A stretch of DNA of 64,000 bases from Pseudonocardia hydrocarbonoxydans (GTDB lineage Bacteria; Actinomycetota; Actinomycetes; Mycobacteriales; Pseudonocardiaceae): positions 62,001-126,000 of the forward strand of contig NZ_BJNG01000015.1 in NCBI RefSeq assembly GCF_006539565.1. The letters are read 5' to 3'. The position numbers and the translations under genes are program-made. This document shows, in pieces, positions 33,581-48,530 of the stretch. Under the pieces are notes generated by a model that saw only the letters and a list, made by a program, of their open reading frames with translations, searched no databases and was not told the DNA's origin. Positions within the stretch are counted from its first letter, which is position 1; every line of letters begins with the position of its first letter.

Positions 33581-33655
33581 TCAGCGACAGCTGGAGGCGC
33601 CCAGGCGCATCAGGTCGACGTGCAGGCGGCGCACGAGACCCGGATCGATCGGCAT
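33581..33655 (-). CDS. Leader peptide of OsmC (HVDL type, ends SCR)
   Basis: 24 codons from the ATG at 33655, which lies 6 nt after GACTGT (leaderless). The peptide contains LVRRLHVDLMRLG and ends ASSCR-stop, with the Cys encoded by TGT in TGTCGCTGA. An internal in-frame GTG at 33634 would give the same conserved end. OsmC starts 62 nt downstream. This is one of six such leaders between 33 and 49 kb. Confidence 0.75.
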   Translation of the reverse strand: MPIDPGLVRRLHVDLMRLGASSCR

Positions 33656-33776
33656 GGTTGCACAGTCAACCGGGCGCGCGGGGGATGCGCCAGGCCCGGT
33701 GGGATGGTGCACGTCCGGCGAACCACCCCGGGGTCCGCGACCGAACGCCCTTCTCGTGCGTGGTGAGCTGTCCCGC

Positions 33777-34520
33777 GTGGACCCGCACCCACCCGGTGAC
33801 GAGCGCAGCCCCGTCGTGCTGCACGTCCCGCACGCGGGCACCCACGTCCCCACCTGGACCCGCCCGCACCTGCTCCTCGACGACGCCGCGCTGGCCGCCG
33901 AGGTCGCCGCGCTGACCGACCACCGCACCGACCGCACGGCCCTCGACGCCGCCGCCCGCGCCCGGGTGCGGCCGTGGGTCGCGGTGAACCCGGTGTCGCG
34001 GTTCGTCGTCGACGTGGAGCGGTTCCCCGACGAGCGGGAGGAGATGGCCGCGGCCGGGATGGGCGCGGTCTACACCCACGGCACCCGGGGGCAGCGCATC
34101 CGCGCCGACGACCCGGGGCACCGCGACGCCCTGCTGGCCGCGTTCTACACACCGTGGGCGCGGCGGATGGAGAAGGTGGTGGCGCACCGGATCGCGGCCA
34201 CCGGCCGCTGCGTGCTGCTCGACGTCCACTCCTACCCGCCCGACCCGCTGCCCTACGAGCTGCACGCCGACGGCCCCCGCCCGCAGGTCTGCCTCGGCAC
34301 CGACCCCGCGCACACCCCGGGGTGGCTCCTCGACGCCGCACGGGACGCGTTCGGGGCCGGGGTCGCGCTGGACACCCCGTTCTCCGGCGCCTACGTGCCG
34401 CTGTCGCGGTACGGCGTCGACGCGCGGGTGGCCGCGCTGATGATCGAGATCCGGCGCGACGTCCCCGAGGACACCGTCGTCGCGGCCCTGACCGGCCTCG
34501 TCGACGTCGTCGGGGCGTGA
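33777..34520 (+). CDS. N-formylglutamate amidohydrolase family protein
   Basis: 247 aa from the GTG at 33777. The family core is visible: VVLHVPHAGTHVP, VNPVSRFVVDVERFPDE, LLDVHSYPPDPLPYE and MIEIRRDVPED. Characterised members cleave N-formylglutamate to formate and glutamate late in histidine degradation. No other hut gene is nearby, so the natural substrate is uncertain. Confidence 0.88.
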   Translation: MDPHPPGDERSPVVLHVPHAGTHVPTWTRPHLLLDDAALAAEVAALTDHRTDRTALDAAARARVRPWVAVNPVSRFVVDVERFPDEREEMAAAGMGAVYTHGTRGQRIRADDPGHRDALLAAFYTPWARRMEKVVAHRIAATGRCVLLDVHSYPPDPLPYELHADGPRPQVCLGTDPAHTPGWLLDAARDAFGAGVALDTPFSGAYVPLSRYGVDARVAALMIEIRRDVPEDTVVAALTGLVDVVGA

Positions 34521-34559
34521 CGCGGGCCCGGTCCGCTGGCCGCCCGGCGCCGCCCGCCG

Positions 34560-34565
34560 TACCGT
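34560..34565 (+). promoter_or_regulatory. -10 hexamer of the flavoprotein leader
   Basis: TACCGT lies exactly 6 nt before the ATG of the leader peptide at 34572, predicting a leaderless transcript. The -35 position (TGGCCG, 17 nt upstream) is weak. Confidence 0.5.
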
Positions 34566-34571
34566 CGAGGC

Positions 34572-34634
34572 ATGGGGACCCCGCTCGCGCGCCGCCGGCA
34601 CGTGGATCTCTGCCGGACGAGCGCCGCGCTGTAG
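34572..34634 (+). CDS. Leader peptide of the FAD/NAD(P)-binding protein (HVDL type)
   Basis: 20 codons: MGTPLARRRHVDL then CRTSAAL-stop. It shares the RRHVDL core with the OsmC and sir leaders, but its single Cys (TGC) directly follows HVDL instead of sitting by the stop. A CGGAC-ACC-GTCCG hairpin and a CCTC/GAGG pair that could cover the Shine-Dalgarno lie between it and the flavoprotein start 42 nt downstream. Confidence 0.75.
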   Translation: MGTPLARRRHVDLCRTSAAL

Positions 34635-34675
34635 GGACCGGACACCGTCCGATCCCTCCGAGCCCGAGGACCTCC

Positions 34676-36583
34676 ATGACCCCCCACGTCGCGACCTCCT
34701 CCATCGCGATCGTCGGCGCCGGGCCGCGTGGCGCCGGGCTGCTGGAACGCCTGGCCGCCAGCGCCCCCGAACTGGTCGGCTCCGATCTCCCGGCGGGCGG
34801 CCTCGACGTCCACCTGATCGACCCCTACCCGGCGGGCGCCGGCCGGATCTGGCGCCACGAGCAGTCGCCGCTGCTGGCGATGAACTCGATGGCCGCCGAC
34901 GTCACGATGTTCACCGACGACTCGGTGGTCTGTGACGGCCCGATCCGCCCGGGGCCCTCGATGTGGGACTGGGTGCGGTCCGGTCCCGAGGTCGACCCGG
35001 AGCTGGCCGAGGAGCTCGCGGGCGTCACGGCGTCGACGTTCCCGAGCCGCCGCCTGCAGAGCGCCTACCTCGGCTGGGTGCTGCAGCACGTGATCGACGG
35101 GCTGCCGGCCGGGATGCGTGCGCACGTGCACCGCACCCGCGCCACCGGCCTCACCGAGGACCCCGGGCCCGACGGCGGCGCCACGCAGGTCGTGCACCTC
35201 GAGGGCGCCCCGCCGCTGCGCGTCGACGCAGTGGTGCTCGCCTCGGGCCACCTCGACGCCACCCCCACCGCCGACGAGGTCGCCCTCGCCGGGCGGGCGG
35301 CCGCGGCGGGCCTGCGCTACCTGCCGCCGGAGCAGACCACCGACTCCGACCTGTCGGTGCTCGCCCCGGGCGAGACGGTGCTGGTGCGCGGGATGGGGCT
35401 GGCGTTCGTCGACCTGGTGGTGCTGCTGTTCGAGGGCCGCGGCGGGCGCTTCACCGACGCCGGGTACGTGCCGTCGGGGCGCGAGCCGCGGCTGGTCGTC
35501 GGGTCACCGCGCGGCAGCACGTACCACTCGAAGACCCACTACGCGCTGCAGGCCCCGCGCCCGCCGCTGCCGCGCTTCTTCGGGCCCGCGGCCGTCGACC
35601 CGCTGATCGCGGCCGGCGAGGTCGACCTGCGCGCGCAGGCCTGGCCGCTGATGGCCAAGGAGATCGCCTGGGGCTGGTACCACGAGCTGTTCCTGGGCCA
35701 CCCCGACGCGGTCGCGCAGCCGTGGGCGGAGTTCGCCGCGTCCTACGCCGCGCTCGACTGGGACTCGCCCGGGATGCGCGCGCTGATCGAGGCCGCCGTC
35801 CCCGACCCCGTCGACCGGATCGACTTCGCCGCGCTGGACCGCCCCCTCGACGGCCTCACCGCCCCCGACCTGGCCGCCCTGCAGCCGCTGGTGCGCGAGC
35901 GGATCGCCGAGGACCTGCGCCAGCACGTCGACGTCCGGCACAGCGCCCACCTGGGCGCGTTCGTCGCGATGCTGTCGGTGTACGGGGAGACCACCCGGCT
36001 GGCCGACGCCCTCTCGACCCGCTCGCGGGCGTCGGACATGGGGTGGTGGCAGGGCTTCTTCAACTCCGTGGCCAGCGGCCCGCCCGGGTTCCGGGTGCGC
36101 CAGCTGCTCGCGCTGTCCCGGGCCGGGTACATCGACTTCCTCGGGGCGGGGATGTGGGTCGAGGTCGAGGACGGCGCGTTCGTCGCCGGCAGCGCCACCC
36201 TGGCCGGGGCCGAGCCGGTGCGGGCCGGCGCGCTGGTCGACGCCCGGCTGCCCGACCCCAGCGCCGCCCGCACGACCGACCCGCTGCTCGCCGACCTGGT
36301 GCGCCGCGGCGACGCCGCCGAGGACATCCTGATCGACGACGACGGCACCGTGCTGCGCAACACCGGCCTGGTCCGCGTGCGTCCCGAGGACGGTGCGCTG
36401 CTCGACGCGGACGGGGCGGTGCACCCGCGGCGCTTCGCGGTGGGCCCGCACACCACGGTCAAGGTGGCGGGCGCCTTCACCCGCCCCGGCATGAACGCCC
36501 AGAGCCTGCGCTACAACGACGCGATCGCCCGCGCCGTGCTGCGCAGCCTCCCGGCCGCGCGGTCGGCCACGCGCGCGGCCTGA
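34676..36583 (+). CDS. FAD/NAD(P)-binding protein
   Basis: 635 aa. N-terminal FAD-binding fold (SIAIVGAGPRGAGLLERL) with family motifs PAGAGRIWRHEQSPLLAMN and ARGMGLAFVDLVV-type second nucleotide site (LVRGMGLAFVDL). It belongs to the family of large flavoproteins annotated only as FAD/NAD(P)-binding (NAD_binding_9). The reaction is unknown. GAGGA precedes the ATG at 34676. The upstream HVDL leader places it in the sulfur-linked regulon, a hint to its function. Confidence 0.88.
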   Translation: MTPHVATSSIAIVGAGPRGAGLLERLAASAPELVGSDLPAGGLDVHLIDPYPAGAGRIWRHEQSPLLAMNSMAADVTMFTDDSVVCDGPIRPGPSMWDWVRSGPEVDPELAEELAGVTASTFPSRRLQSAYLGWVLQHVIDGLPAGMRAHVHRTRATGLTEDPGPDGGATQVVHLEGAPPLRVDAVVLASGHLDATPTADEVALAGRAAAAGLRYLPPEQTTDSDLSVLAPGETVLVRGMGLAFVDLVVLLFEGRGGRFTDAGYVPSGREPRLVVGSPRGSTYHSKTHYALQAPRPPLPRFFGPAAVDPLIAAGEVDLRAQAWPLMAKEIAWGWYHELFLGHPDAVAQPWAEFAASYAALDWDSPGMRALIEAAVPDPVDRIDFAALDRPLDGLTAPDLAALQPLVRERIAEDLRQHVDVRHSAHLGAFVAMLSVYGETTRLADALSTRSRASDMGWWQGFFNSVASGPPGFRVRQLLALSRAGYIDFLGAGMWVEVEDGAFVAGSATLAGAEPVRAGALVDARLPDPSAARTTDPLLADLVRRGDAAEDILIDDDGTVLRNTGLVRVRPEDGALLDADGAVHPRRFAVGPHTTVKVAGAFTRPGMNAQSLRYNDAIARAVLRSLPAARSATRAA

Positions 36584-36610
36584 CCGGCGGCGGGACCCGA
36601 CCGCACCGCC

Positions 36611-36844: not shown

Positions 36845-36948
36845 GGATGCTCCTGGAGTGGGTGTCGGACGGGCCGGTGGGCGGGCCGGTCCGACAGCGG
36901 TCACTCGCGTCGTGGCACAGGTCGCGGTCACGTCGCCGGGTCAGCACG

Positions 36949-38058
36949 TCAGGCCCCGGAGGAGAACCCGGAGAACAGCAGGACGGCCAGTCCCAGGCCG
37001 ACCAGCAGGTTCACCGCGGTGGCGCTCGCGAACACCCCGACCGGCCGCCAACCCGCGTCCTTGAGCGGGGCGACCCGGAACTCCAGCCCGATCGAGACGA
37101 ACGCCAGGATCAGGAAGATCGTCCGGAGGTCGTTCACCGTCGAGATGTAGGGCCGAGCCACGTCGGACCCGACCGCGCCGATGTAGATCGTCGCGATGAT
37201 CGACGCGGCCAGGAAGCCGAGCACGAACTTCGGGAACCGCTCCCACAGCTCGCGGGCCTTCGGGCGGGCCGAGTCGGCCGTGCGCTCGACGGAGAAGGCG
37301 AAGTAGGCCGTCAGCGCGACGGCCACGACGCCGAGCAGCGCGTTCTGCGTGGTCTTGACGATCGTGGCGATCTGCAGGGCCTCCTCGCCGACGATCGCCC
37401 CGGCCGCCGACACCGCGGCGGTGGTGTCGATGTTGCCGCCGATCCAGGCGCCGGCCACCGGGTTCTCCAGCCCGAGCCAGCCGACGGCCGCGGGCAGCAG
37501 GAAGATCGAGGGCAGTGCGAAGATGATCACCATGCTGGCCGTGTAGGCCAGCTGCTCCTTCTTCGCCTGCACCGCGCCCGCGGCCGCGATGGCCGCGCTC
37601 ACGCCGCAGATCGACACCGCCGACGCCAGCAGCGCGCGCAGCTTGTCGTCGAGGTCCAGGCGCCCGCCCAGCCACCACGTGAAGCCGAACACGACGCTGA
37701 TCAGCACCACGGCCTGCACGATCGCCGGCCCGGCCGCGCTGACGATCACCGCGAAGTTGATCGACGCGCCGAGCAGCACCAGGCCGGTCTTGATGAAGAA
37801 CTCGGTCCGGAAACCGCCCGCGAGCTTCTCGCGGACACCCAGCTGGGTCAGCACGACGTTGCCGAGCAGACCGAGCACGATCGCGTAGACGGGGTACTCG
37901 ATCGCGCCCGCGACCTCCCCGAACGCGGTCCCCTCCGTCAGGTCCGGGATGTTCTGCTCCAGGTACCGGACGATCGCGCCCAGCCCCACCACGACGGCGA
38001 CGCCGCCGACGGCCCAGCCGACGCCCGAGCGCCTTCCGGTCTGCTCCGTGGTGCTCAT
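36949..38058 (-). CDS. YeiH/UPF0324-type putative sulfate exporter
   Basis: 369 aa with about ten membrane segments. Conserved family stretches are KTGLVLLGASINFA, LLASAVSICGVSAAIAA, WIGGNIDTTAAVSAAG and TTQNALLGVVAVA. The family is annotated as putative sulfate exporter. Its ATG shares one base with the stop of a 46-aa membrane protein (TGATG), and a DLEPFWPSRR leader lies further upstream. Confidence 0.9.
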   Translation of the reverse strand: MSTTEQTGRRSGVGWAVGGVAVVVGLGAIVRYLEQNIPDLTEGTAFGEVAGAIEYPVYAIVLGLLGNVVLTQLGVREKLAGGFRTEFFIKTGLVLLGASINFAVIVSAAGPAIVQAVVLISVVFGFTWWLGGRLDLDDKLRALLASAVSICGVSAAIAAAGAVQAKKEQLAYTASMVIIFALPSIFLLPAAVGWLGLENPVAGAWIGGNIDTTAAVSAAGAIVGEEALQIATIVKTTQNALLGVVAVALTAYFAFSVERTADSARPKARELWERFPKFVLGFLAASIIATIYIGAVGSDVARPYISTVNDLRTIFLILAFVSIGLEFRVAPLKDAGWRPVGVFASATAVNLLVGLGLAVLLFSGFSSGA

Positions 38059-38198
38059 CAGGGCACCAGCCAGGCGGGGATCACGCCGGTCAGCACCAGC
38101 GCCAGGATGACCAGGCCGACGATCGTGGCCAGCCAGTCCTCGTTCAGCGCGGTCCGCCGCTGCGCGCGGACGCCGTCGTCAGGAGTCGCGTCGGTCAT
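38058..38198 (-). CDS. 46-aa single-pass membrane protein coupled to the exporter
   Basis: ATG at 38198 behind GGAGAGGTG. A short polar N-terminus (MTDATPDDGVRAQRRTALNE) is followed by one membrane helix (DWLATIVGLVILALVLTGVI) and PAWLVP. It is translationally coupled to the exporter by TGATG. Too short for routine gene calling. It is likely an accessory subunit of the exporter (inference). Confidence 0.8.
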   Translation of the reverse strand: MTDATPDDGVRAQRRTALNEDWLATIVGLVILALVLTGVIPAWLVP

Positions 38199-38346
38199 CG
38201 TCGATCACCTCTCCGGAGGTCGGGACGGGCCGGTCGGTCGTCGGCTCGCCGACGGTCTGCCGGCAGGCGAAGACGAGGAGAATGCGCATGAGGGGGGAAC
38301 TCCGGGACGGGAGTGACGACGAGGGCGGACCCGGGCGAACCGGTGG

Positions 38347-38421
38347 TCAGCGACAGAGCTCGTCGAACGCGTGCAGGCGACGGGAGGGCCAGAACGGCTC
38401 CAGGTCCCGACGCGGCGTCAT
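38347..38421 (-). CDS. Leader peptide of the sulfate-exporter operon (FWPSRR type)
   Basis: 24 codons from the ATG at 38421: MTPRRDLEPFWPSRR then LHAFDELCR-stop. The Cys codon is TGT, in TGTCGCTGA. It is nearly identical over its last 19 residues to the leaders at 41366 and 42699. The 46-aa membrane protein and exporter follow 148 nt downstream. Confidence 0.85.
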   Translation of the reverse strand: MTPRRDLEPFWPSRRLHAFDELCR

Positions 38422-38427
38422 CACCCC

Positions 38428-38456
38428 ATCGTGCGCGGTGGGTCCCGGCGGGACAA
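38428..38456 (-). promoter_or_regulatory. Promoter of the exporter leader
   Basis: TTGTCC (38451-38456), 17-nt spacer, CACGAT (38428-38433), then 6 nt to the ATG. GTCCC-GGC-GGGAC, a palindrome, overlaps the -35 and spacer (38442-38454). The same layout recurs at 41495 and 42825. Confidence 0.75.
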
Positions 38457-38498
38457 CCAGGTGTCCGCCCGCCGGGATCCGCACGGAATGTCCGGACC

Positions 38499-39389
38499 TC
38501 ATACCGGTGCGGCCAGGCCCCGGGTCTGCAGCACCCGGCGTTCCAGCGGTTTGAACACCAGCAGCTCGATGCCCACGCCCACGATCAGGATCAGCACGAT
38601 CGCCGAGATCACCCCGGCGATGTTGTTCACGTCGCTGCCCTGCTTGAGGTACGCGCCGAGACCGACGCCGAGCTGCGGGGACGTGGCGATGATCTCCGCG
38701 GCCATCAGCGAGCGCCAGGCGAACGCCCAGCCCTGCTTGCAGCCGGCCAGGTACCCGGGCAGGGCCGCGGGCAGCAGGATCAGCCGGGCCGAGGCGAGGC
38801 GGCCCGCGCCCATCACGTCGCCGACCCGGCCCAGGATCGGCGGCACCTGGTCGATGCCGGAGACCAGACCGTTGGCGATCGAGGGCACCGAGCCCAGGAG
38901 CACGACGAAGTAGATGGTGGCGTCGGTGAGCCCGAACCACAGCACGGCGGCCGGCACCCAGGCCACCGACGGCAGGCTCTGCATGCCCGAGAGCAGCGGC
39001 CCGATCGCGGTCCGCACGAACGCGACCTTGGCCACCAGCAGCCCGAGCGGGGTGGCGATGGCGACGGCGACGAGGAAGCCGACGACCGCCCGGCCGACCG
39101 AGGTCCAGGTGATCGACCAGATCGAGCCGTCGACGACGATCTCGCCGAACTGCTCGGCCACGGTGCCCGGGGCCGGGAGCTTGAACTCCGGGAACAGCGC
39201 CGAGGCCCACAGGGCCTGCCAGGCCACGATGACCACGACGAGGGTGAGCACCGGCGGCACCGTGGCACCCAGTGCCCGGCGCCACAGCGGCGTGCGGGTG
39301 ACGGTGGGGGTGTCGAGCGCGTCGAGCCCGGCGACCGCCGCGGCCGCGTCGCGGTCGACGACCCGGACGGTCTCAGGCGGCGCGGCCAT
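38499..39389 (-). CDS. ABC transporter permease (nitrate/sulfonate/taurine type)
   Basis: 296 aa with six membrane segments and the permease EAA loop region (VMGAGRLASARLILLPAALPGYLAG). It resembles SsuC/TauC. Its start overlaps the stop of the ATPase gene by 17 nt. Sulfonate or taurine uptake is inferred from the family, the sulfur-linked leader of the operon and the surrounding sulfur genes. Confidence 0.9.
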   Translation of the reverse strand: MAAPPETVRVVDRDAAAAVAGLDALDTPTVTRTPLWRRALGATVPPVLTLVVVIVAWQALWASALFPEFKLPAPGTVAEQFGEIVVDGSIWSITWTSVGRAVVGFLVAVAIATPLGLLVAKVAFVRTAIGPLLSGMQSLPSVAWVPAAVLWFGLTDATIYFVVLLGSVPSIANGLVSGIDQVPPILGRVGDVMGAGRLASARLILLPAALPGYLAGCKQGWAFAWRSLMAAEIIATSPQLGVGLGAYLKQGSDVNNIAGVISAIVLILIVGVGIELLVFKPLERRVLQTRGLAAPV

Positions 39390-40176
39390 GGGTCGAGATC
39401 ACCTCCCGCAGGTGGTCGGTGATCTCGCCGGTGAGCGCGCGGCGGTCGGCCGTGCCGGTGAGGTCCCACTCCCGCACGACGGTGCCCGGGCGCGAGGACA
39501 GCAGCACCACGCGCTGCCCCAGCCGCACCGCCTCCCGCACGTCGTGGGTGACGAAGACGACCGCGGTCCCGGTGGCCCGCCACACCCGCTCCAGCTCGCC
39601 CTGCAGGACGTCGCGGGTGATCGCGTCGAGCGCGGCGAACGGCTCGTCCATCAGCATCAGCCGCCCGCCCTTCTCGGCGTCGCCCGAGGTGGTGTCGACC
39701 GTCGTGGCCGCCAGCGCCCGGGCCAACGCCACGCGCTGGCGCATGCCGCCGGACAGCTCGTGCGGGCGCTTGCGCGCCTGGCCGTCGAGCCGGACCAGCT
39801 CCAGCAGCTCGTTCGCGGTGCCGCGGCGGTTCGACCGGCCCACCCCGGCCAGCCGCAGCGGCAGCTCGACGTTGCGCACGGCGGTGAGCCACGGCAGCAG
39901 CGCGGGCTCCTGGAACATCACCGCCGGCCGGTCCGTCGCGACGTCCACCGTGCCGCGGGTGGGTCGGTCCAGCCCGGCGAGCAGGTTGAGCAGGGTCGTC
40001 TTGCCGCAGCCCGACGCCCCCAGCAGGCAGACGAACTCGCCCGGCTCGACCCGCAGGTCGACGCCGGTGAGCGCGGTGACGGCGCCCGCGCCGGTCCCGA
40101 AGACCTTCGCGACCCCGGTGAGCTGCGCGGCGGGCCGGGTGGGTGCTACCTGGGTGCGGTCCAGCGTGGCGGTCAT
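39373..40176 (-). CDS. ABC transporter ATP-binding protein (sulfonate type)
   Basis: 267 aa. Walker A GASGCGKTT, Q-loop MFQEPALLPW, signature LSGGMRQR, Walker B LMLMDEPFAALD and H-loop FVTHDVREA are all intact. It resembles SsuB/TauB. An unusual insert (ATTVDTTSGDAEKGGR) sits between the signature and Walker B. ATG at 40176 with GGAGG 8 nt upstream. Confidence 0.92.
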   Translation of the reverse strand: MTATLDRTQVAPTRPAAQLTGVAKVFGTGAGAVTALTGVDLRVEPGEFVCLLGASGCGKTTLLNLLAGLDRPTRGTVDVATDRPAVMFQEPALLPWLTAVRNVELPLRLAGVGRSNRRGTANELLELVRLDGQARKRPHELSGGMRQRVALARALAATTVDTTSGDAEKGGRLMLMDEPFAALDAITRDVLQGELERVWRATGTAVVFVTHDVREAVRLGQRVVLLSSRPGTVVREWDLTGTADRRALTGEITDHLREVISTHGRAA

Positions 40177-40208
40177 CGTCGTCCTCCGGTGGTGAGATGT
40201 GCCGGGCG

Positions 40209-41258
40209 TCAGGATGCGGCGACGGCCGGTTGCCCCGCCGCCTCCAGCTCGGCGTTGAGCGGGCCCACGTCGATGAACCCGGTCAGGTCGGTCAGCTCGT
40301 CGGTGATGCCGGCGGTCACGCTGTCCTGCGCGAGCTGCGGGAACGTCGCGGCCAGCGGGTCGGTGGAGAAGGAGAGCTCGCCGAACGCGCGCTCGATCAC
40401 CGGGTCGGTGAGCCGGTTGCCGGTGATCTCCTCGATCCCGTCGTTGACGATGGTCCGCGCGCGCACCGGGTCGGTGGTGGCGAGCTCGGTGGCGGCGATG
40501 TGCCCGCGGATCAGGGCGCGGACGGTGTCCGGGTAGGCCTGCAGGAACTCGGTGGACACCAGCAGCACGGTGGTGGGGAAGTTCCCGCCGTCCCACAGCT
40601 CCCGCTCGTCGAGCAGCACGCTCGCGCCCGCGTCGAGGACCAGCCGCGAGCTCCACGGCTCGGGCAGCCACGCGGCCTGCACCTCGCCCGCCCGGAACGC
40701 GTCGAGCGTGCGCGGGTTCTCCAGGTTGGCGATCTGCACGTCGGTGCCGACCGCCAGGCCCTGCTCGTCGAGCCACACCTTGAGCGCGATGTCCTGGGTG
40801 TTGCCCAGCTGCGGGGTGGCGATGGTGGTGCCGCGCAGCTGCTCGGGCGAGGTGATGTCCGGGCGGACGACGAGCTGCGCCCCGCCGTCGGTGGCCCCGG
40901 CGACCAGGCGCACCGCGGCGCCGTCGGACTGGGCGAACGCGTTGATCGCGGGCCCGGAGCCGATGTAGGTGGCGTCGAGCGAGCCGCCGAACAGCGCGTT
41001 GACGGCCTCGCCGCCGGCGTTGAAGTTCTGGACGGTCAGCGTGGTGTCGCCGAGCTCCTGCGTGAACAGGCCCTCCGTGTCGCCGATGATCGCGGCGGCG
41101 TGGGTGACGTTGGGGAAGTAGCCCAGCCGCAGCTCCGCGGCGGTGCCCCCGGCGGCCGGTGCGGCCGCGGTGTCGGGTGCGGGCTCGGCGCGGGAGCAGC
41201 CGGCGAGGGCGAGTGCGGCGGTCAGGGCGACGATCAGCGAACGGGTCCGGCGGGACAT
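40209..41258 (-). CDS. ABC transporter substrate-binding lipoprotein (sulfonate type)
   Basis: 349 aa. Lipoprotein signal ending LALAGCS (Cys about residue 21). The mature protein shows the SsuA/TauA-like pattern LRLGYFPNVTHAAAI, ALFGGSLDATYIGSGPAINA and AWLPEPWSSRL. It is the first structural gene of the three-gene transporter operon and is preceded by an FWPSRR leader peptide. Confidence 0.92.
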   Translation of the reverse strand: MSRRTRSLIVALTAALALAGCSRAEPAPDTAAAPAAGGTAAELRLGYFPNVTHAAAIIGDTEGLFTQELGDTTLTVQNFNAGGEAVNALFGGSLDATYIGSGPAINAFAQSDGAAVRLVAGATDGGAQLVVRPDITSPEQLRGTTIATPQLGNTQDIALKVWLDEQGLAVGTDVQIANLENPRTLDAFRAGEVQAAWLPEPWSSRLVLDAGASVLLDERELWDGGNFPTTVLLVSTEFLQAYPDTVRALIRGHIAATELATTDPVRARTIVNDGIEEITGNRLTDPVIERAFGELSFSTDPLAATFPQLAQDSVTAGITDELTDLTGFIDVGPLNAELEAAGQPAVAAS

Positions 41259-41365: not shown

Positions 41366-41488
41366 TCAGCGACAGAACTCGTCGAACGCGTGGCCGCGCC
41401 GGGACGGCCAGAAGCGTTCGAGGTCGGTGGCGAGCGGGGACGCCGGAACCGCGGACCTGTGCGTCACGCACGGCGGGGTCGGCATCAC
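41366..41488 (-). CDS. Leader peptide of the sulfonate-type ABC operon (FWPSRR type)
   Basis: 40 codons from a GTG at 41488 (ATG at 41485 also in frame). The variable N-terminal part includes an extra Cys (TPPCVTH). The conserved part is TDLERFWPSRR then GHAFDEFCR-stop, with TGT in TGTCGCTGA. The substrate-binding protein starts 107 nt downstream; a CCCCCTC segment follows the leader stop. Confidence 0.85.
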   Translation of the reverse strand: MMPTPPCVTHRSAVPASPLATDLERFWPSRRGHAFDEFCR

Positions 41489-41494: not shown

Positions 41495-41523
41495 ATCGTG
41501 AGCGGTGTGCACACCCGGTACAA
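41495..41523 (-). promoter_or_regulatory. Promoter of the ABC-operon leader
   Basis: TTGTAC (41518-41523), 17-nt spacer, CACGAT (41495-41500), then 6 nt to the GTG. The spacer contains a perfect 12-bp palindrome GGTGTGCACACC (41504-41515). Confidence 0.75.
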
Positions 41524-41717: not shown

Positions 41718-42626
41718 TCAGACGTGCTGCGGGACGTCGAGCGCGTCGGCGTCGGCGGCGGCCCGGCGCGTGGCGCGCAGCCGGCGCGCCGCCATGACCA
41801 CCAGCGCCACCGACGCCACCGCGACCACGACGTGCGCCACGGGCACGGCCACCCCGTCGACCCCGGCGGAGCCCAGCACGATGCGCAGGTTGGACAGCAC
41901 GATCAGCCCGCCCACCGCGACGCCGAGCACGGTGGCGGGCAGGCGGGTGACCAGCCACGCCGCGACCGGGGCCGCGAGGACGCCGCCGACGAGCAGCCCG
42001 GCGACGGCGAGCCAGTCGATCCCGGCGTGGCCCAGCCCGATGACGAACCCGGCCGAGGCCGCGACTGTCACCAGGAACTCCGAGGCGCTGACCGAGCCAA
42101 TGACGGTGCGCGGCGCGGTGCGCCCTGCGGTGAGCAGCGTGGACGTGGCGACCGGGCCCCACCCGCCGCCACCGGTGGCGTCGACGAACCCGCCGACGAG
42201 CCCGACCGGGACCAGGAAGCGCCGGCCGTGCGGCGAGACGCGGGCCACGGACTCGCGCGGCGGCCGGACCGAGTACTTGACCAGGATGAACACGCCGATC
42301 CCGATCAGCAGCGCGGCCATCAGCGGCGCGGAGGCCTCGGTGGACAGCCACGACAGCAGCAGCGCCCCGACCAGCGCCCCGAACGCACCGGGCACGCCCA
42401 GGCGCAGGACGAGCTTCGGGTCGATGTTGTCGAAGCGCCAGTGCGCGTAACCCGACGCCAGCGCCGTGCCGATCTTCGCGAAGTGCACCGACGCGCTGGC
42501 CGCGGCGGGGGTGAGCCCGGCGAGCAGCAGCAGCGTGGTCGAGGTGACCCCGTAGCCCATGCCGAGGGCGCCGTCGACGAGCTGGGCGCCGAAACCGGCG
42601 AGGGCGAGCAGGACGAGCATGGTCAC
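41718..42626 (-). CDS. TauE/SafE-family sulfite/sulfonate exporter
   Basis: 302 aa with about eight membrane segments and the two TauE/SafE repeats (GAQLVDGALGMGYGVTSTTLL; GLVGGFVDATGGGGWGPVATSTLL). The family exports sulfite, sulfoacetate or related organosulfur anions. GTG at 42626 with GGAG 8 nt upstream. An FWPSRR leader precedes it. Confidence 0.92.
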   Translation of the reverse strand: MTMLVLLALAGFGAQLVDGALGMGYGVTSTTLLLLAGLTPAAASASVHFAKIGTALASGYAHWRFDNIDPKLVLRLGVPGAFGALVGALLLSWLSTEASAPLMAALLIGIGVFILVKYSVRPPRESVARVSPHGRRFLVPVGLVGGFVDATGGGGWGPVATSTLLTAGRTAPRTVIGSVSASEFLVTVAASAGFVIGLGHAGIDWLAVAGLLVGGVLAAPVAAWLVTRLPATVLGVAVGGLIVLSNLRIVLGSAGVDGVAVPVAHVVVAVASVALVVMAARRLRATRRAAADADALDVPQHV

Positions 42627-42698
42627 GACGGGACTCCAGGGGCGAGCGCGGGCCCGGGCGGCGACCGGCCGGGCGACGGGATCAGCGGGGGAGAACGG

Positions 42699-42818
42699 TC
42701 AGCGACAGAACTCGTCGTAGGCGTGGCCGCGGCGCGAGGGCCAGAACTCCTCGAGATCGGGGCGCAGGCCACCGGTCGCGTCGACCGGACGCGCGATCTC
42801 GTACCCGGCCGTCGTCAC
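42699..42818 (-). CDS. Leader peptide of the TauE/SafE gene (FWPSRR type)
   Basis: 39 codons from the GTG at 42818. Variable start VTTAGYEIARPVDAT, then RPDLEEFWPSRR and GHAYDEFCR-stop, with TGT in TGTCGCTGA. TTCTCCCCC lies right after the stop and is complementary to the TauE Shine-Dalgarno. TauE starts 72 nt downstream. Confidence 0.85.
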   Translation of the reverse strand: MTTAGYEIARPVDATGGLRPDLEEFWPSRRGHAYDEFCR

Positions 42819-42824
42819 GCCCCC

Positions 42825-42853
42825 ATCGTCCGGACTCATCCGGTGGACGACAA
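42825..42853 (-). promoter_or_regulatory. Promoter of the TauE/SafE leader
   Basis: TTGTCG (42848-42853), 17-nt spacer, GACGAT (42825-42830), then 6 nt to the GTG. The -35 lies inside the 3' end of the chelatase gene. CCGGA-n4-TCCGG (42830-42843) lies in the spacer. Confidence 0.75.
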
Positions 42854-43615: not shown

Positions 43616-43618
43616 CGG

Positions 43619-44908
43619 TCAGCCGGCCAGCGTGAGCGGCGTGCCGACCAGGCCCGCCGCCAGGGTGTTGCCGGTGGGCGGGTCGATGAGCAGGAAGCTG
43701 CCGGTGGCGCGGATGTCGGCGTAGTCGTCGACCGGCAGCGGGTCGGCGGTGCGCAGCGACACCCGGGCGATGTCGTTGATCGCCAGCTGCTCGGGGGCGT
43801 CGGCCCAGGACACCGTGTCGGTGTCGAGCCGGTCGCCCAGCACCCCGACGATCACCTGCGTGGTGCGCGCCCCGTGCTTGAGCAGCAGCCGCGCCCCGGG
43901 GCGCAGCGCCTTGTCCGAGAGCCAGCACAGCGTGGCGTCCAGCTCGTTCGTGACGCGCGGCGGCGTGCCCGCCGCGGCCAGGACGTCGCCGCGGGCGATG
44001 TCGATGTCGTCGGCCAGCCGGATCGTGACGCTGCGCCCGGCGCCCGCCTGCTCCAGCGGGCCGTCGGCGGTGTCGACGCCGGTGACCGTGGTGCGGGTGC
44101 CGCCGGGCAGGACGACGACCTCGTCGCCGGGGCGCACGGTGCCCGAGGCGACCTGGCCCGCGTAGCCGCGGTAGTCGCTCGCGTGCTCGCGGATGACGTA
44201 CTGCACCGGCATCCGGAACGGCGCGTCCGCCTCCGGCGGGGTGACCGGCACCGACTCCAGGTGCCCGAGCAGCGTCGGCCCGTCGTACCAGGGGGTGTGC
44301 GCGGAGCGCTCGACGACGTTGTCGCCGACGAGGGCGGAGACCGGGATCGTCACGACGGACTCGAAGCCCAGCGAACGGGCGAGCTCGGCGAAGTCCTTGC
44401 CGATCGCGGTGAGCACGGCCTCGTCGTAGCCCACGAGGTCGATCTTGTTGATGCACAGCACCAGCCGCGGCACGCGCAGCAGCGCGAGCACCGCCGCGTG
44501 CCGGCGGGTCTGCTCGACCACCCCGTGCCGGGCGTCGACCAGCAGCACGGCCAGCTCGGCGGTGGACGCGCCGGTGACGGTGTTGCGCGTGTACTGCACG
44601 TGGCCGGGGGTGTCGGCCAGCACGAACTCGCGCGTGGGCGTGGAGAAGTAGCGGTAGGCCACGTCGATGGTGATGCCCTGCTCGCGCTCGGCGCGCAGGC
44701 CGTCGACCAGCAGCGACAGGTCGGGCGTGGCCAGGCCCCGGTCGACCGAGGCGCGCTGCACGGCCTCGATCTGGTCGGCCAGCACCGACTTGGTGTCGTA
44801 GAGCAGGCGCCCGACGAGGGTGGACTTGCCGTCGTCGACGGAGCCCGCCGTGGCGAACCGCAGCAGCGCGACCTGCTTGCAGGGTCGCGCCGTCGATTGA
44901 GTCTTCAC
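43619..44908 (-). CDS. cysN: Sulfate adenylyltransferase GTPase subunit
   Basis: 429 aa. EF-Tu-like GTPase with G1 GSVDDGKST, G3 DTPGH and G4 NKID. It drives ATP sulfurylase with CysD, activating sulfate to APS. There is no fused CysC (APS kinase) domain, unlike mycobacterial CysNC, which fits a pathway reducing APS directly through CysH. GTG start abuts the cysD stop. Confidence 0.95.
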   Translation of the reverse strand: MKTQSTARPCKQVALLRFATAGSVDDGKSTLVGRLLYDTKSVLADQIEAVQRASVDRGLATPDLSLLVDGLRAEREQGITIDVAYRYFSTPTREFVLADTPGHVQYTRNTVTGASTAELAVLLVDARHGVVEQTRRHAAVLALLRVPRLVLCINKIDLVGYDEAVLTAIGKDFAELARSLGFESVVTIPVSALVGDNVVERSAHTPWYDGPTLLGHLESVPVTPPEADAPFRMPVQYVIREHASDYRGYAGQVASGTVRPGDEVVVLPGGTRTTVTGVDTADGPLEQAGAGRSVTIRLADDIDIARGDVLAAAGTPPRVTNELDATLCWLSDKALRPGARLLLKHGARTTQVIVGVLGDRLDTDTVSWADAPEQLAINDIARVSLRTADPLPVDDYADIRATGSFLLIDPPTGNTLAAGLVGTPLTLAG

Positions 44909-45811
44909 TTAGAAATACCCCTCGCGCTTGCGGTCTTCCATGGCGGCCTCGGAGAGGCGGTCGTCGGCGCGGGTGGCCCCGCGCTCGGTGAGTCGCGACG
45001 CCGTGACCTCGGCGATGATCTCGTCGAGCGTGGTGGCGGTGGACTCGACGGCGCCGGTGCACGAGCCGTCGCCGACGGTGCGGTAGCGGACCGTCCGCTC
45101 CTCGAGCACCTCCGTGCCGCGGGGGCCGCCCCACGGCCCCTCGGCCAGCCACATCCCGTCGCGGCGGAACACCTCGCGCCGGTGGGAGTAGTAGATCGAC
45201 GGCAGCTCGATGCGCTCGCGCTGGATGTAGCGCCAGACGTCGAGCTCGGTCCAGTTGGAGATCGGGAACACCCGGACGTGCTCGCCGGGGGCGTGCCGGC
45301 CGTTGTAGAGGTTCCACAGCTCCGGGCGCTGGCTGCGGGGGTCCCAGCGGCCGAAGCCGTCGCGCAGGGACATGATCCGTTCCTTGGCCCGGGCTCGTTC
45401 CTCGTCACGGCGGCCGCCGCCGAAGACCGCGTCGTGGCGCTTCTCGACGATCGTGTCGAGCAGCGGCACGGTCTGCAGCGGGTTGCGGGTGCCGTCGGGG
45501 CGCTCGGTGAGGCGGCCGTCGTCGATCCAGTCCTGGACGTGCGCCACCTCCAGCCGCAGCCCCTTCTCGGCGACGATCCGGTCGCGGAACTCGATGACCT
45601 CGGCGTAGTTGTGCCCGGTGTCGACGTGCAGCAGCGGGAACGGCACCGGCGCGGGCGCGAAGGCCTTGACCGCCAGGTGTACCAGCAGCGTGGAGTCCTT
45701 GCCGCCGGAGAACAGGATCACCGGGCGGTCGAACTCGCCCGCGACCTCGCGGAAGATGTGGATCGCCTCGGACTCGAGGGCGTCCAGGGCGTCCAGCACG
45801 GGGGTCGTCAT
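44909..45811 (-). CDS. cysD: Sulfate adenylyltransferase subunit 2
   Basis: 300 aa. PP-loop ATP sulfurylase with LFSGGKDSTLL, the loops HVDTGHNYAEVIEFRD and FGGGRRDEERARAKER, and the C-terminal EDRKREGYF typical of CysD. ATG overlaps the cysH stop (ATGA). Confidence 0.96.
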   Translation of the reverse strand: MTTPVLDALDALESEAIHIFREVAGEFDRPVILFSGGKDSTLLVHLAVKAFAPAPVPFPLLHVDTGHNYAEVIEFRDRIVAEKGLRLEVAHVQDWIDDGRLTERPDGTRNPLQTVPLLDTIVEKRHDAVFGGGRRDEERARAKERIMSLRDGFGRWDPRSQRPELWNLYNGRHAPGEHVRVFPISNWTELDVWRYIQRERIELPSIYYSHRREVFRRDGMWLAEGPWGGPRGTEVLEERTVRYRTVGDGSCTGAVESTATTLDEIIAEVTASRLTERGATRADDRLSEAAMEDRKREGYF

Positions 45812-46548
45812 GACGGGTGCAGCCCACATTCGATCTTGGCGGTGCCGGCCCAGCGGCCGGACCGGGGGTCGGCGCCGGGGGCCGGCTTGGCGGTGCACGG
45901 GGCGCAGCCGATGGACGGGTAACCCTCGGCGACCAGCGGGTTGACCAGGATCCCGTGCTCGGCGATGTAGGCGTCCATGTCCGCGTCGCTCCACGGCGCG
46001 ATCGGGTTGATCTTGACGAGCCCGAACTTCTCGTCGAACTGGATCAGCGGCGTGTTCGCCCGGGTGGGGGCCTCGACGCGGCGCACCCCGGTGACCCAGG
46101 CGTCGTAGTCGGCGAGCGTCTCCTGCAGCGGCTCGACCTTGCGCATCCCGCAGCAGGCGCCCGGGTCGCGGGCGAACAGGTCCTTGCCGAACTCGAGGTC
46201 CTGCTGGGCGACGGTCCGGCGCGCCCGCGCGTCGACGATCCGCACGTCGTAGACGTGCTCGACGGCGTCGCGGGTGCCGATGGTCTCGGCGAAGTGGTAG
46301 CCGGTCTCCAGGAACAAGACATCGAGGACGCCGGGGCCCTCGGGCTGCTTGCAGGCCCGAGCATCGGACACCGCCTTCGCGGCCAGGTCGACCAGCACGG
46401 CGTCCTGCATGTTGGAGGCGACGATCAGCCTGTCGCCGAAGGTCTGCGCCGCCCAGGCCAGCAGCTGTGGCGCCGTGGCGTCCGGACCCAGCTCGGCGGC
46501 GCCGCGCTCGGCGACGCCCCGCAGGTCGGTCTCCGTCGCGATGCTCAT
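45808..46548 (-). CDS. cysH: Assimilatory adenylylsulfate (APS) reductase
   Basis: 246 aa. The [4Fe-4S] ligands are Cys132-Cys133 (ACCGMRKVEPL) and Cys215/Cys218 (GCAPC); the catalytic Cys241 is in the C-terminal ECGLH. Their presence marks an APS rather than PAPS reductase and agrees with the lack of CysC. It yields sulfite using thioredoxin. ATG overlaps the stop of the 48-aa gene. Confidence 0.95.
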   Translation of the reverse strand: MSIATETDLRGVAERGAAELGPDATAPQLLAWAAQTFGDRLIVASNMQDAVLVDLAAKAVSDARACKQPEGPGVLDVLFLETGYHFAETIGTRDAVEHVYDVRIVDARARRTVAQQDLEFGKDLFARDPGACCGMRKVEPLQETLADYDAWVTGVRRVEAPTRANTPLIQFDEKFGLVKINPIAPWSDADMDAYIAEHGILVNPLVAEGYPSIGCAPCTAKPAPGADPRSGRWAGTAKIECGLHPS

Positions 46549-46691
46549 GAGGGCACTCCGATCCCGATCATCTTCAGCGTGAACGTGCGCAGGCAGGAAC
46601 CGCAGTACCAGGCCCCGTGCGCGGCCTCCGCGGGCCGCAGGTCCTCGTCGCCGCAGTACGGGCAGTAGAACGGGACCGCCCGCTCGCTCAT
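46545..46691 (-). CDS. 48-aa double-CxxC protein in the sulfate assimilation operon
   Basis: Starts ATG at 46691, overlapping both the sir stop and the cysH start by 4 nt. Two CxxC pairs (FYCPYCGDEDL and WYCGSCLRTFTLK) make a compact zinc-ribbon or rubredoxin-like knot. Its locked position between sulfite reductase and APS reductase suggests a partner of one of them, for electron transfer or metal-centre assembly (inference). Confidence 0.85.
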   Translation of the reverse strand: MSERAVPFYCPYCGDEDLRPAEAAHGAWYCGSCLRTFTLKMIGIGVPS

Positions 46692-48355
46692 TTCAGGTCG
46701 TCTTCGTCCGCGCGCAGCACCCACTGCGCGAAGCGCTCGTCGCCCTCGCGCTGCGCGGCGAAGCGGCGCACCACCCGGTCGACGTAGTCGCCCAGCTCGG
46801 CGCTGGTGACCTTGAGCCCGCGCAGCTTGCGGCCGAACCCGGAGTCGAGCCCCAGCCCGCCGCCCAGGTGCACCTGGAATCCCTCGACCTGGTTGCCGTC
46901 GGTGTCGGTGACGATCTGGCCCTTGAGCCCGATGTCGGCCACCTGGGTGCGGGCGCACGAGTTGGGGCACCCGTTGAGGTGGATGGAGATCGGGTGCTCG
47001 GGCACGACGTCGGACAGGCGCTTCTCCAGCTCCTCGACCAGCCGGATCGCCCGCTCCTTGGTCTCCACGATCGCGAGCTTGCAGAACTCGATGCCGGTGC
47101 AGGCCATCGTCGCGCGCCGCCACGGCGACGGGTCGGCCTGCAGGCCCAGGGTGTTGAGCCGGGCGACCAGGGCGTCGACGCGGTCGTCGGCGACGTCGAG
47201 CACCACGATCTTCTGCTGGGCGGTGAGCCGGACCCGGCCCGAGCCGGCCTTCTCGACGGCGTCGGCCAGCGCCACGAGCGTGGTGCCCGAGACGCGGCCG
47301 GAGGCGGGGGCGACCCCGACGTAGTTGCGGCCGTCGACCTGCCTGTGCACGCCCACGTGGTCGATCGGGCGCTCCGGGGTGGCGGGCGCGGGGCCGTCGA
47401 TCAGGCTGCGGCCCAGGTACTCGTCCTCCAGGACGCGGCGGAACTCCGCGGCACCCCAGTCGGCGACCAGGAACTTGATGCGGGCGCGGTGGCGCAGGCG
47501 CCGGTAGCCGTAGTCGCGGAAGACCGAGATGATCCCGGCCCACACGTCGGGCACCTCGTCGAGCGGCACCCACGCGCCGAGGCGCTGCGCGATCTTCGGG
47601 TTGGTCGAGAGCCCGCCGCCGACCCACACGTCGAAGCCGGGGCCGTGCTCGGGGTGCACCGAGCCGATGAACGACACGTCGTTGATCTCGTGGGCGACGT
47701 CCTGCTGCCACGAGATCGCCGACTTGAACTTGCGGGGCAGGTTGGAGAACTTCGGGTCCCCGACGTACCGGTCGACGATCGCGTCGATGGCCGGGGTGGG
47801 GTCGAGGACCTCGTCGGCGGAGACCCCGGCGACCGGGGAGCCGAGCACGACGCGCGGGGTGTCGCCGCAGGCCTCGGTGGTGAGCATGCCCAGACCCTCG
47901 AGCTTCGCCCAGATCGCCGGCATGTCGACGATGTCGATCCAGTGGTACTGGATGTTCTGCCGGTCGGTGACGTCGGCGGTGTCGCGGGCGTAGGTCTGGC
48001 TGATCCCACCCAGCGCGCGCAGCTGCTCGGTGGTGAGCGCGCCGCCGTCGAGCCGGACGCGGAGCATGAAGTAGGAGTCGTCGAGCTCCTCGGGCTCCAG
48101 CGCGGCGGTGCGCCCGCCGTCGATCCCGGGGCGGCGCTGGGTGTAGAGGCCCCACCAGCGCATCCGCCCGCGCAGGTCGGCCGGGTCGATCGAGTCGAAC
48201 CCGCGCTTGCTGTAGACGTTCTCGATGCGCGCCCGGACGTTGAGCCCGTCGTCGTCCTTCTTGGTGCGCTCGTTGGGGTTGAGCGGCTCGCGATGGCCCA
48301 GCTTCCACTGGCCCTCTCCGCGCTTGCGCTTGACTGCAGGGGTCGAGGGGGGCAA
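46688..48355 (-). CDS. sir: Ferredoxin-dependent sulfite reductase
   Basis: 555 aa. Siroheme/[4Fe-4S] enzyme of the SirA/NirA type reducing sulfite to sulfide with six electrons. Cluster ligands are in ACTGIEFCKLA and NGCPNSCAR. WGLYTQRRPG and TEACGDTPR hold the Tyr and Cys cross-linked in mycobacterial SirA. The start is a TTG at 48355, supported by GGAGG 6 nt upstream. It opens a six-gene operon with 4-nt overlaps and is preceded by an HVDL leader. Confidence 0.94.
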   Translation of the reverse strand: MPPSTPAVKRKRGEGQWKLGHREPLNPNERTKKDDDGLNVRARIENVYSKRGFDSIDPADLRGRMRWWGLYTQRRPGIDGGRTAALEPEELDDSYFMLRVRLDGGALTTEQLRALGGISQTYARDTADVTDRQNIQYHWIDIVDMPAIWAKLEGLGMLTTEACGDTPRVVLGSPVAGVSADEVLDPTPAIDAIVDRYVGDPKFSNLPRKFKSAISWQQDVAHEINDVSFIGSVHPEHGPGFDVWVGGGLSTNPKIAQRLGAWVPLDEVPDVWAGIISVFRDYGYRRLRHRARIKFLVADWGAAEFRRVLEDEYLGRSLIDGPAPATPERPIDHVGVHRQVDGRNYVGVAPASGRVSGTTLVALADAVEKAGSGRVRLTAQQKIVVLDVADDRVDALVARLNTLGLQADPSPWRRATMACTGIEFCKLAIVETKERAIRLVEELEKRLSDVVPEHPISIHLNGCPNSCARTQVADIGLKGQIVTDTDGNQVEGFQVHLGGGLGLDSGFGRKLRGLKVTSAELGDYVDRVVRRFAAQREGDERFAQWVLRADEDDLK

Positions 48356-48419
48356 AGCGGTGCCTCCGATGGCGGTGGTGCGCCGAGAGTCGGTTCGGGA
48401 TGGACGCGGAGAGATCGCG

Positions 48420-48530
48420 TCAGAGACAGATCGCGCTGCTGACCCGGCTGAGATCGACGTGCCGCCGGGCGACGAGGCGCAGGCCCAACGCGGCGACCCC
48501 GGGGGACGGGGCGGGCATCGGCACGGTCAC
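48420..48530 (-). CDS. Leader peptide of the sulfate assimilation operon (HVDL type)
   Basis: 36 codons if read from the GTG at 48530 (7 nt after CACTCT); an ATG at 48518 is also possible. The conserved end is GLRLVARRHVDLSR then VSSAICL-stop, with the Cys as TGT in TGTCTCTGA. TCTCTCCGCG follows the stop and could pair with the sir Shine-Dalgarno GGAGG. sir begins 64 nt downstream. Confidence 0.78.
   Translation of the reverse strand: MTVPMPAPSPGVAALGLRLVARRHVDLSRVSSAICL

Follow-up and report, generated by a model that had tools for sequence, protein, structure and literature searches.

Six very small open reading frames (ORFs) precede genes of sulfur type in a 64,000-nucleotide (nt) stretch of Pseudonocardia hydrocarbonoxydans (contig NZ_BJNG01000015.1, positions 62,001–126,000), which was analyzed as a whole and is referred to as the window. 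These ORFs would act in cis as leader peptides for a regulon of cysteine and sulfur genes, forming two unrelated families with one design. The favored reading, to which a probability of about 0.62 was given, is that the leaders are cysteine-responsive attenuators in which the ribosome stalls at a UGU codon on cysteine shortage, with the nascent chain aiding the stall. The evidence that carries this reading is the near-exceptionless use of UGU at one key cysteine in both families and the conserved amino acids ahead of it.

All six ORFs, which had been proposed earlier from the letters of the window (the sequence-only reading), could be found at their coordinates (Table 1), five of them on the minus strand. 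The two common motifs claimed for them were also present, DLExFWPSRRxHAxDExCR-stop in three leaders (the FW family) and RxHVDL in the other three (the RH family). The six peptides were MPIDPGLVRRLHVDLMRLGASSCR, MGTPLARRRHVDLCRTSAAL, MTPRRDLEPFWPSRRLHAFDELCR, (V)MPTPPCVTHRSAVPASPLATDLERFWPSRRGHAFDEFCR, (V)TTAGYEIARPVDATGGLRPDLEEFWPSRRGHAYDEFCR and (V)TVPMPAPSPGVAALGLRLVARRHVDLSRVSSAICL. The exact FW string occurred in three copies in the window versus none in 20 mononucleotide shuffles, and CTGTCGCTGA, the end of four window leaders, occurred four times versus 0.19 expected. Each of the three FW leaders of the window contained a single cysteine in its core and no run of cysteine codons near the stop.

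Codon usage at the key cysteine

The last conserved cysteine was taken as the key cysteine (position 0), and distinct sequences were counted as distinct 57-nt sequences. Four loci were left out before counting, namely L111 and L112 (partial chance matches), L180 (RH motif unreadable) and L004 (a stop at the key position), and the window leaders of osmC and of the sulfite reductase (sir) operon (wOsmC and wSir), which duplicate L007 and L002, were taken out of the distinct counts. The key codon was TGT in 182 of 183 FW loci (167/168 distinct), the sole exception being TGA in L140, and in 76 of 76 RH loci (74/74 distinct), counts that do not represent independent events as many leader sequences are related. 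TGT made up 176 of the 2071 cysteine codons (8.5%) in the flanking genes at the leader loci and 7 of 147 in the window genes.

Upstream cysteines in the same peptides were mostly TGC. Among distinct RH sequences TGC and TGT were counted 27 and 3 times at position −7 and 22 and 4 times at −2, with TGC three times at −1; in FW, TGC was found three times each at −7 and −1. Other two-fold codons ended in C, as seen for Phe(−13) (TTC in 166/168) and Asp(−3) (GAC in 160/167) of FW. The key codon is locked to UGU while the upstream cysteines of the same peptides are ordinary, and therefore the codon itself is under selection. The FW searches should not have been biased to TGT, as the comparisons were six-frame protein comparisons and the initial patterns were degenerate. 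The UGU rule can be tested by a one-base synonymous change, and so strict a synonymous constraint within a conserved nascent chain allows single-codon amino acid sensing to be tested directly. Nearly all distinct sequences have a pyrimidine directly after UGU (167 of 168 in FW, 71 of 74 in RH).

The leader proposed for the flavoprotein gene was retained in part: its ORF and motif are there, but a stop replaces the key cysteine of the other leaders. This TAG and the TGA of L140 occupy the exact position of the key UGU, and both leaders precede flavin-type enzymes. Leaders with a stop at this position may be decayed, or may represent a variant that pauses at termination.

Conservation of the peptides

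In FW, Phe(−13), Trp(−12) and Arg(−9) were present in all 168 distinct sequences and Asp(−3) in 167, and in RH, Arg(−13), Asp(−9) and Arg(−6) were present in 74 of 74. Synonymous codons were freely interchanged at the conserved Arg, Pro and Ser residues; Arg(−9) of FW was encoded by CGC (56), CGT (55), CGG (50) and CGA (7), and both TCN and AGC were used for Ser(−10). Free synonymous change at conserved residues means that the peptide is also selected, and the claim of selection on the amino acids of the leaders was thus upheld. The constrained stretch covered about 13 to 16 residues ahead of the key cysteine, which was residue 15–51 in FW (122 loci with an assigned start) and 16–41 in RH (55 loci). 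The N-terminal part and the tail varied, and the leader stop lay 1–15 codons past the key cysteine. The roughly 16 residues before the decoded codon are those within the upper exit tunnel, and the leaders have the arrest-peptide trait of a conserved chain confined to the tunnel-proximal stretch.

The sequence-only reading had preferred nascent-chain sensing to codon counting. The constraint on the chain agrees with it, but its exclusion of the codon does not survive the UGU counts given above; these patterns indicate that peptide and codon both matter. Plain codon-reading attenuation, in which the cysteine codon alone matters and the peptide is its incidental carrier, would account for the fixed UGU and has a parallel in mycobacterial leaders with runs of cysteine codons, reported as cysteine-responsive (Canestrari 2020, as described in citing papers). 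It is nevertheless rather improbable, given about ten amino acid positions conserved over many genera with free synonymous change, and a lone cysteine codon would be a weak sensor by itself.

Distribution and novelty of the two families

A motif search of other genomes revealed that both families are kept across many actinobacterial genera, in agreement with the conservation claimed earlier. At least 550 FW-related stretches were present in a named collection, and the best 80 of these, which were read, included leaders from Streptomyces, Pseudonocardia, Actinomycetospora, Actinokineospora, Kitasatospora and Streptantibioticus. In the phylum sample FW was found in 11 of 296 genomes at an expectation value (E) up to 0.01, two being chance matches. 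At E up to 1e-4 the order sample had it in 36 of 298 genomes and the class sample in 38 of 296. Family f79 gave 7 of 24 genomes and genus g2 gave 30 of 118; the samples overlap. Every match at E up to 1e-4 in these samples was read, and FW spanned at least ten actinobacterial family handles (f1, f2, f5, f74, f75, f79, f84, f88, f99 and f108). For RH, the NCBIfam model NF042934 at E up to 1e-4 matched 45 of 60 class genomes but no control genome (0 of 14), and beyond this genome 69 of its 99 matches were read as loci.

No FW leader was found in plasmid records with a Streptomyces peptide query or in phage records with a window peptide query. A composite FW query gave one plasmid place, on the Embleya megaplasmid NZ_CP108785.1 (L318:2501-2575). 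This FW-like leader, SLEGFWPTRRVRLFDEACR, has TGT as its key cysteine codon and stands outside the counts. No same-strand gene was called directly after it, and an inverted repeat was seen by eye from about 50 nt past its stop; it is possibly an orphan.

The two motifs singled out by the sequence-only reading differ in novelty. RxHVDL is already curated by NCBI, as RH corresponds to NF042934 "putative leader peptide" (cis_reg_atten), whose 27-bit cut-off was exceeded by two of the three window RH leaders, with the osmC leader under it at 21 bits. FW, in contrast, is absent from NCBIfam and Pfam: the three window FW peptides gave no match in either at E up to 10, NF042934 included. The models of Ms5788A and Ms4527A (NF042933 and NF042936) reached at best 23.6 and 29.4 bits, under their 45-bit cut-offs. 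In the open-licence PubMed Central (PMC) literature, covered in full text for the motif strings, which turned up a single unrelated paper, and otherwise mostly by titles and abstract starts, no paper describing the FW family was found, nor any printed statement of a fixed UGU in such leaders. FW appears to be an undescribed leader-peptide family, by which the sulfur regulon of actinobacteria would be extended.

Homology of FW and RH was considered and rejected, since their cores do not align (hhalign probability 0.4). Profiles that cannot be aligned, together with the same kinds of genes behind both in different lineages, argue for convergence.

Genes downstream of the leaders

Targets were clustered from the first downstream ORF given by a simple ORF caller, which was assigned in 180 of 183 FW and 71 of 76 RH loci. 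Profile searches, run on only one to three members of several clusters, matched PF00486, PF00484, PF04264, PF05995, PF14340, PF00296, PF00581 and PF01053. The largest FW target groups were a Streptomyces-type winged-helix regulator (68), TauE (55), SsuA-like proteins (16), a cysteine-dioxygenase cluster (10) and beta-carbonic anhydrases (9). These were followed by a luciferase-like fragment in Actinomycetospora (7), a lipoprotein-like binding protein (5, by eye), luciferase-like proteins (2) and YeiH (2), with one case each of OsmC, DUF4395 and a pyridoxal phosphate (PLP) enzyme and three singletons. RH targets were sulfite reductase (14), DUF4395 (13), rhodanese-domain proteins (11), CysH (4), luciferase-like proteins (4), cysteine dioxygenase (3) and smaller groups. 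Common to FW and RH, respectively, were cysteine dioxygenase (10 and 3), SsuA-like proteins (16 and 2), DUF4395 (1 and 13), luciferase-like proteins (2 and 4), OsmC (1 and 2) and a Cys/Met-metabolism PLP enzyme (1 and 1). Sulfur or thiol families follow about half of the FW leaders, and the Streptomyces regulator follows most of the others. The proposed sulfur regulon is therefore reflected outside the Streptomyces-type leaders, where targets are mostly of sulfur or thiol type, but not by the Streptomyces-type regulator itself (68/180 FW).

This genome contained ten leaders in all, four of them outside the window. A profile of the three FW cores added one FW leader, located before a beta-carbonic anhydrase (L022), to the three of the window, giving four genome-wide. 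A search with NF042934 gave six convincing RH leaders, three in the window and three outside it, before DUF4395 and rhodanese-domain proteins (L003), a luciferase-like monooxygenase (L005) and a Cys/Met-metabolism PLP enzyme that we take to be MetY-like (L006). This search was run at a loose E up to 10, at which control genomes also match, none above the cut-off. The candidate L001 was rejected as a chance DNA match within a coding gene.

That the ORFs encode small proteins acting in trans, with which the conserved peptides would agree, is highly improbable: the N-terminal part and tail vary in length, an ORF lies directly 5' of a gene at nearly all loci by the assignments given above, and one genome carries ten copies.

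The Streptomyces-type FW leaders (among L023–L102) precede a winged-helix protein of about 200 amino acids (aa), of which two scanned members matched PF00486 and showed no receiver domain; to our knowledge, this regulator has not been studied. At L115 in family f79, the second gene of the FW operon, behind cysteine dioxygenase, encodes a rhodanese domain joined to a winged-helix domain of OmpR type, the latter 40% identical to the Streptomyces regulator over 101 residues. This fusion protein may be a regulator that senses sulfur and is related to the Streptomyces protein. The resemblance is suggestive only as a hint that the latter is also a sulfur regulator, since the DNA-binding family shared by the two is very common. 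FW leaders preceded beta-carbonic anhydrases in several genera (L022, L050, L062, L119, L122, L137 and L138). Sulfur-linked control is thus suggested for the Streptomyces winged-helix regulator, the beta-carbonic anhydrases and the TauE and YeiH permeases.

The winged-helix products lacked cysteine in 68 of 69 cases versus 18 of 64 background proteins of 150–260 aa, and the TauE products in 47 of 55 versus 28 of 116 background proteins of 261–360 aa. This low cysteine content fits a shortage response, though only suggestively. The opposite response is expected of a metabolite-sensing arrest peptide, whose chain would bind cysteine or a sulfur compound and stall in abundance, as TnaC does with tryptophan, thereby turning on export and catabolic genes. 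Such a peptide would explain the conserved residues within about 16 of the key cysteine, the spacing of Trp to the end, which resembles that of TnaC, and targets such as YeiH, TauE and cysteine dioxygenase with its rhodanese/winged-helix second gene. It leaves unexplained why the codon, beyond the residue, is fixed; uptake and assimilation genes (ssuABC and sir-cysHDN) are also targets, and the scarcity of cysteine in the winged-helix and TauE products fits shortage, though other targets are rich in it. This explanation is considered unlikely, although it is the strongest of those that compete with stalling at UGU on shortage.

Leader starts and the RNA downstream

Leaderless starts were assessed by the presence of xAnnnT or TnnnAT 6–7 nt ahead of an in-frame start, with the two other frames as control. 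This geometry was found in 61 of 66 Streptomyces-type leaders (other frames 2 and 4), 22 of 31 Pseudonocardia-type (0 and 0), 3 of 3 window FW (0 and 0), 53 of 74 RH (5 and 4), 5 of 7 f79 (2 and 0) and 3 of 7 beta-carbonic anhydrase leaders (0 and 0). By these hexamers, the Streptomyces-type, Pseudonocardia-type and RH leader starts look mostly leaderless.

The 60 nt after the leader stop showed an excess of C over G in all eight groups (means 0.23–0.40 versus 0.03) when 171 loci (135 FW, 36 RH) were compared with 231 other upstream regions. Such C-rich, G-poor gaps are as would be expected for Rho loading sites. The best perfect stem 3' of UGU was compared with dinucleotide shuffles and exceeded them in the Streptomyces-type (n = 64, p = 5e-11), genus g2 (n = 38, p = 4e-12), f79 (n = 7, p = 0.008) and RH leaders (n = 34, p = 0.014), but not in the beta-carbonic anhydrase (n = 7, p = 0.15) or Actinomycetospora leaders (n = 7, p = 0.77). 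Folding energies were partly at odds with this test, with mean z values of −1.0 in the Streptomyces-type, −1.2 in Actinomycetospora, −1.0 in the beta-carbonic anhydrase group, −2.7 in four f79 leaders, −0.5 in g2 and in RH, −0.1 in the Pseudonocardia group and +0.7 in the window. A hairpin just 3' of UGU was rejected as a universal switch, as it is absent from the Pseudonocardia group and the window FW leaders. Likewise, no consistent stem of a classical terminator could be seen 3' of UGU in these two groups, where U-tracts were not searched with a dedicated tool, and Rfam gave nothing at the gathering threshold in 30000–52000 of the window.

In g2 (alignment A5), the region between the leader and tauE contains a hairpin, GGUCRC...GYGACC, that shows some covariation. 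This second helix beat 500 of 500 shuffles on three of five measures, while 183 and 413 of 500 shuffles reached its score on the pair-count and pair-type measures, so that covariation supports the helix only in part. A further predicted helix in g2 pairs the Shine-Dalgarno-like region with codons after the start and shows no covariation. The output step may differ between lineages.

RNA structure was also tried as the reason for UGU and was not supported. On in silico replacement of UGU by UGC, the pairing of the third base was 0.74 and 0.74 in FW (70/183 loci) and 0.58 and 0.63 in RH (69/76), an inconsistent change, and the UGC form in FW had a slightly more stable fold (mean −0.42 kcal/mol). 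The possibility that UGU and the core are kept as an RNA structure or as a DNA or RNA binding site, translation being dispensable, draws on the C-rich gaps, the stems 3' of UGU in three lineage groups and the second g2 hairpin. It is very improbable in view of fourfold third positions that vary freely, the inconsistent effect of the UGC swap, and a stop position and 3' sequence that vary by lineage.

Proposed mechanism

The genome (99% complete) contained 45 tRNA genes by Rfam RF00005. Thirty loci and 14 stretches covering all 45 were read, and a single tRNA-Cys with anticodon GCA was found; UGU is therefore read by wobble. Passages of PMC1183508 explain codon choice in attenuators by isoacceptor-selective charging. 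For cysteine this argument does not apply here, and selective charging among tRNA-Cys isoacceptors was rejected, because only one tRNA-Cys gene was found.

In the proposed scheme, the mRNA of this genome would begin at the leader start codon and be translated immediately. As the ribosome meets UGU, the 13 to 16 conserved residues would occupy the upper exit tunnel, and UGU would be decoded by the single tRNA-Cys(GCA) through a G-U wobble. When Cys-tRNA is scarce, the ribosome would stall at UGU with the help of the nascent chain and the downstream gene would be turned on. When cysteine is ample, termination would follow one to fifteen codons on, freeing a C-rich 5' stretch, which would then lead to attenuation by Rho, by a hairpin or by blocked initiation, depending on lineage. 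Transcription starts, stalling, Cys-tRNA as the signal, the direction of the response and the output step are parts of this scheme that we infer. Stalling at UGU aided by the chain is favored because it explains the constraint on both codon and peptide.

Several results weigh against stalling at UGU on shortage. Cysteines shortly after the key codon do not simply follow ordinary codon usage: at position +1 of FW, TGC and TGT were counted 38 and 30 times (33 and 6 in the Streptomyces-type, 2 and 19 in genus g2), and in RH the pooled positions +1 to +4 gave 15 and 11. Some targets are rich in cysteine, with 1.33 per 100 aa in sulfite reductase, 2.23 in CysH, 1.37 in DUF4395 and 1.32 in carbonic anhydrase versus 0.96 in the background, and cysteine dioxygenase as a target is more in keeping with an excess of cysteine than with a lack of it. 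The stem 3' of UGU was not found in the Pseudonocardia group (n = 30, p = 0.63) and lay below shuffles in the window FW leaders (n = 3); the Streptomyces-type helix had no compensatory pair, and compensatory support for g2 helix 1 was no better than in shuffles. By the hexamer test, leaderless geometry occurred in only 3 of 39 g2 leaders (other frames 2 and 3) and 0 of 7 Actinomycetospora leaders (0 and 0). Finally, explaining UGU by a wobble rate is a guess.

A more far-reaching version, held tentatively and with less confidence than stalling as such, sees the leaders as a convergent sensor: unrelated chains would prime the ribosome, decoding of UGU by tRNA-Cys(GCA) would serve as a sulfur gauge at which UGC would fail, and the Streptomyces winged-helix regulator, a predicted sulfur regulator, would stand under this sensor. 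Speculatively, the signal could lie in how far tRNA-Cys is charged or in a modification of its anticodon loop that depends on sulfur (ms2i6A37).

Features of the window

The leaders, the genes behind them and the −10-like hexamers are given in Table 1. The leader claimed for yeiH was confirmed as an ORF 5' of that gene, but a 46-aa ORF overlapping the yeiH start intervenes. After the yeiH leader, a 36-codon ORF (38179–38289, minus strand) starts with MRILLVFA, and the TauE of L026 starts with MRTLIVFA (by eye); it looks as if a tauE leader and tauE start had been copied before yeiH. Between sir and cysH, a small ORF (46545–46691, minus strand) contains two CxxC motifs (...FYCPYCGDED...WYCGSCLR...).

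Table 1. Leader ORFs, downstream genes and −10-like hexamers, in positions of the window
Feature	Position	Strand	Evidence and remarks
RH leader ORF ending CR-stop	33581..33655	-	5' of osmC; UGU 33587-33589; NF042934 21 bits (cut-off 27)
RH leader ORF	34572..34634	+	5' of FAD/NAD(P)-binding protein gene; NF042934 29.3 bits; TAG at key-Cys position
FW leader ORF, MTPRRDLEPFWPSRRLHAFDELCR-stop	38347..38421	-	5' of yeiH operon; core 38350-38406; UGU 38353-38355
FW leader ORF	41366..41488	-	5' of ssuA-ssuB-ssuC; core 41369-41425; UGU 41372-41374
FW leader ORF	42699..42818	-	5' of tauE; core 42702-42758; UGU 42705-42707
RH leader ORF	48420..48530	-	5' of sir-cysHDN; UGU 48426-48428; NF042934 33.5 bits
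OsmC-like protein	33064..33519	-	PF02566
Orphan FAD/NAD(P)-binding protein	34676..36583	+	PF13454
YeiH-like putative sulfate exporter	36949..38058	-	PF03601; TIGR00698 87.6 bits, under cut-off 232.6
46-aa ORF, membrane-like	38058..38198	-	Overlaps yeiH start; read by eye
ssuA, ssuB, ssuC	38499..41258	-	TIGR01728 above cut-off (ssuA); PF00005 (ssuB); PF00528 (ssuC)
TauE/SafE-family permease	41718..42626	-	PF01925
Sulfite reductase, two PAPS-reductase-domain proteins (cysH-, cysD-like), cysN-like GTPase	43619..48355	-	Profile search
-10-like GACTGT	33662..33667	-	6 nt before osmC-leader start (by eye)
-10-like TACCGT	34560..34565	+	6 nt before flavoprotein-leader start (by eye)
-10-like CACGAT	38428..38433	-	6 nt before yeiH-leader start; TTGTCC further upstream (by eye)
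-10-like CACGAT	41495..41500	-	6 nt before ssu-leader start
-10-like GACGAT	42825..42830	-	6 nt before tauE-leader start
-10-like CACTCT	48538..48543	-	7 nt before sir-leader start (by eye)

Comparison with known systems

The mycobacterial cysteine-rich leaderless upstream ORFs, as far as passages of PMC4633059 and PMC9094748 describe them, are a precedent for cysteine-responsive attenuation at these leaders. Ms5788A, Ms4527A and the mycobacterial ORFs in passages of PMC4633059 resemble the window leaders in being short ORFs before sulfur genes with cysteine near the C-terminus, leaderless in mycobacteria and putatively so here; they differ in carrying a run of cysteines, whereas the window leaders have one key cysteine, and the FW core is unrelated to them. 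The actinobacterial cysteine leaders of Seliverstov 2005 (PMC1262725), as presented in parts of that paper, likewise consist of a leader ORF with cysteine codons and no obvious terminator, with Rho suggested. Close to their stop they carry runs of cysteine codons, as described for Mycobacterium, Propionibacterium and Bifidobacterium, and the passages seen do not contain the FW motif. The regulation of proteins with PF00480 or PF14340 is named together with sulfur metabolism in the title of Lyubetsky 2014, cited in PMC4833913, and PF14340 (DUF4395) was found here behind 13 RH leaders and one FW leader.

Among the NF042934 leaders, the RH leaders of the flavoprotein gene and the sir operon find their place, whereas the three FW peptides do not. 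Classical terminator/antiterminator attenuators, such as actinobacterial trp and ilvB, share with the leaders a peptide with a regulatory codon 5' of a pathway operon, but the leaders described here have no universal terminator hairpin, a single regulatory codon and a conserved peptide sequence. In arrest peptides of the TnaC type, the upper tunnel is occupied by a short conserved chain whose invariant Trp lies about 12 residues from the end. The leaders here likewise have a short conserved upper-tunnel chain, with an invariant Trp(−12) in FW; TnaC ends in Pro-stop, whereas these leaders have a codon-fixed cysteine, and in the Streptomyces-type the stop lies four or more codons further on.

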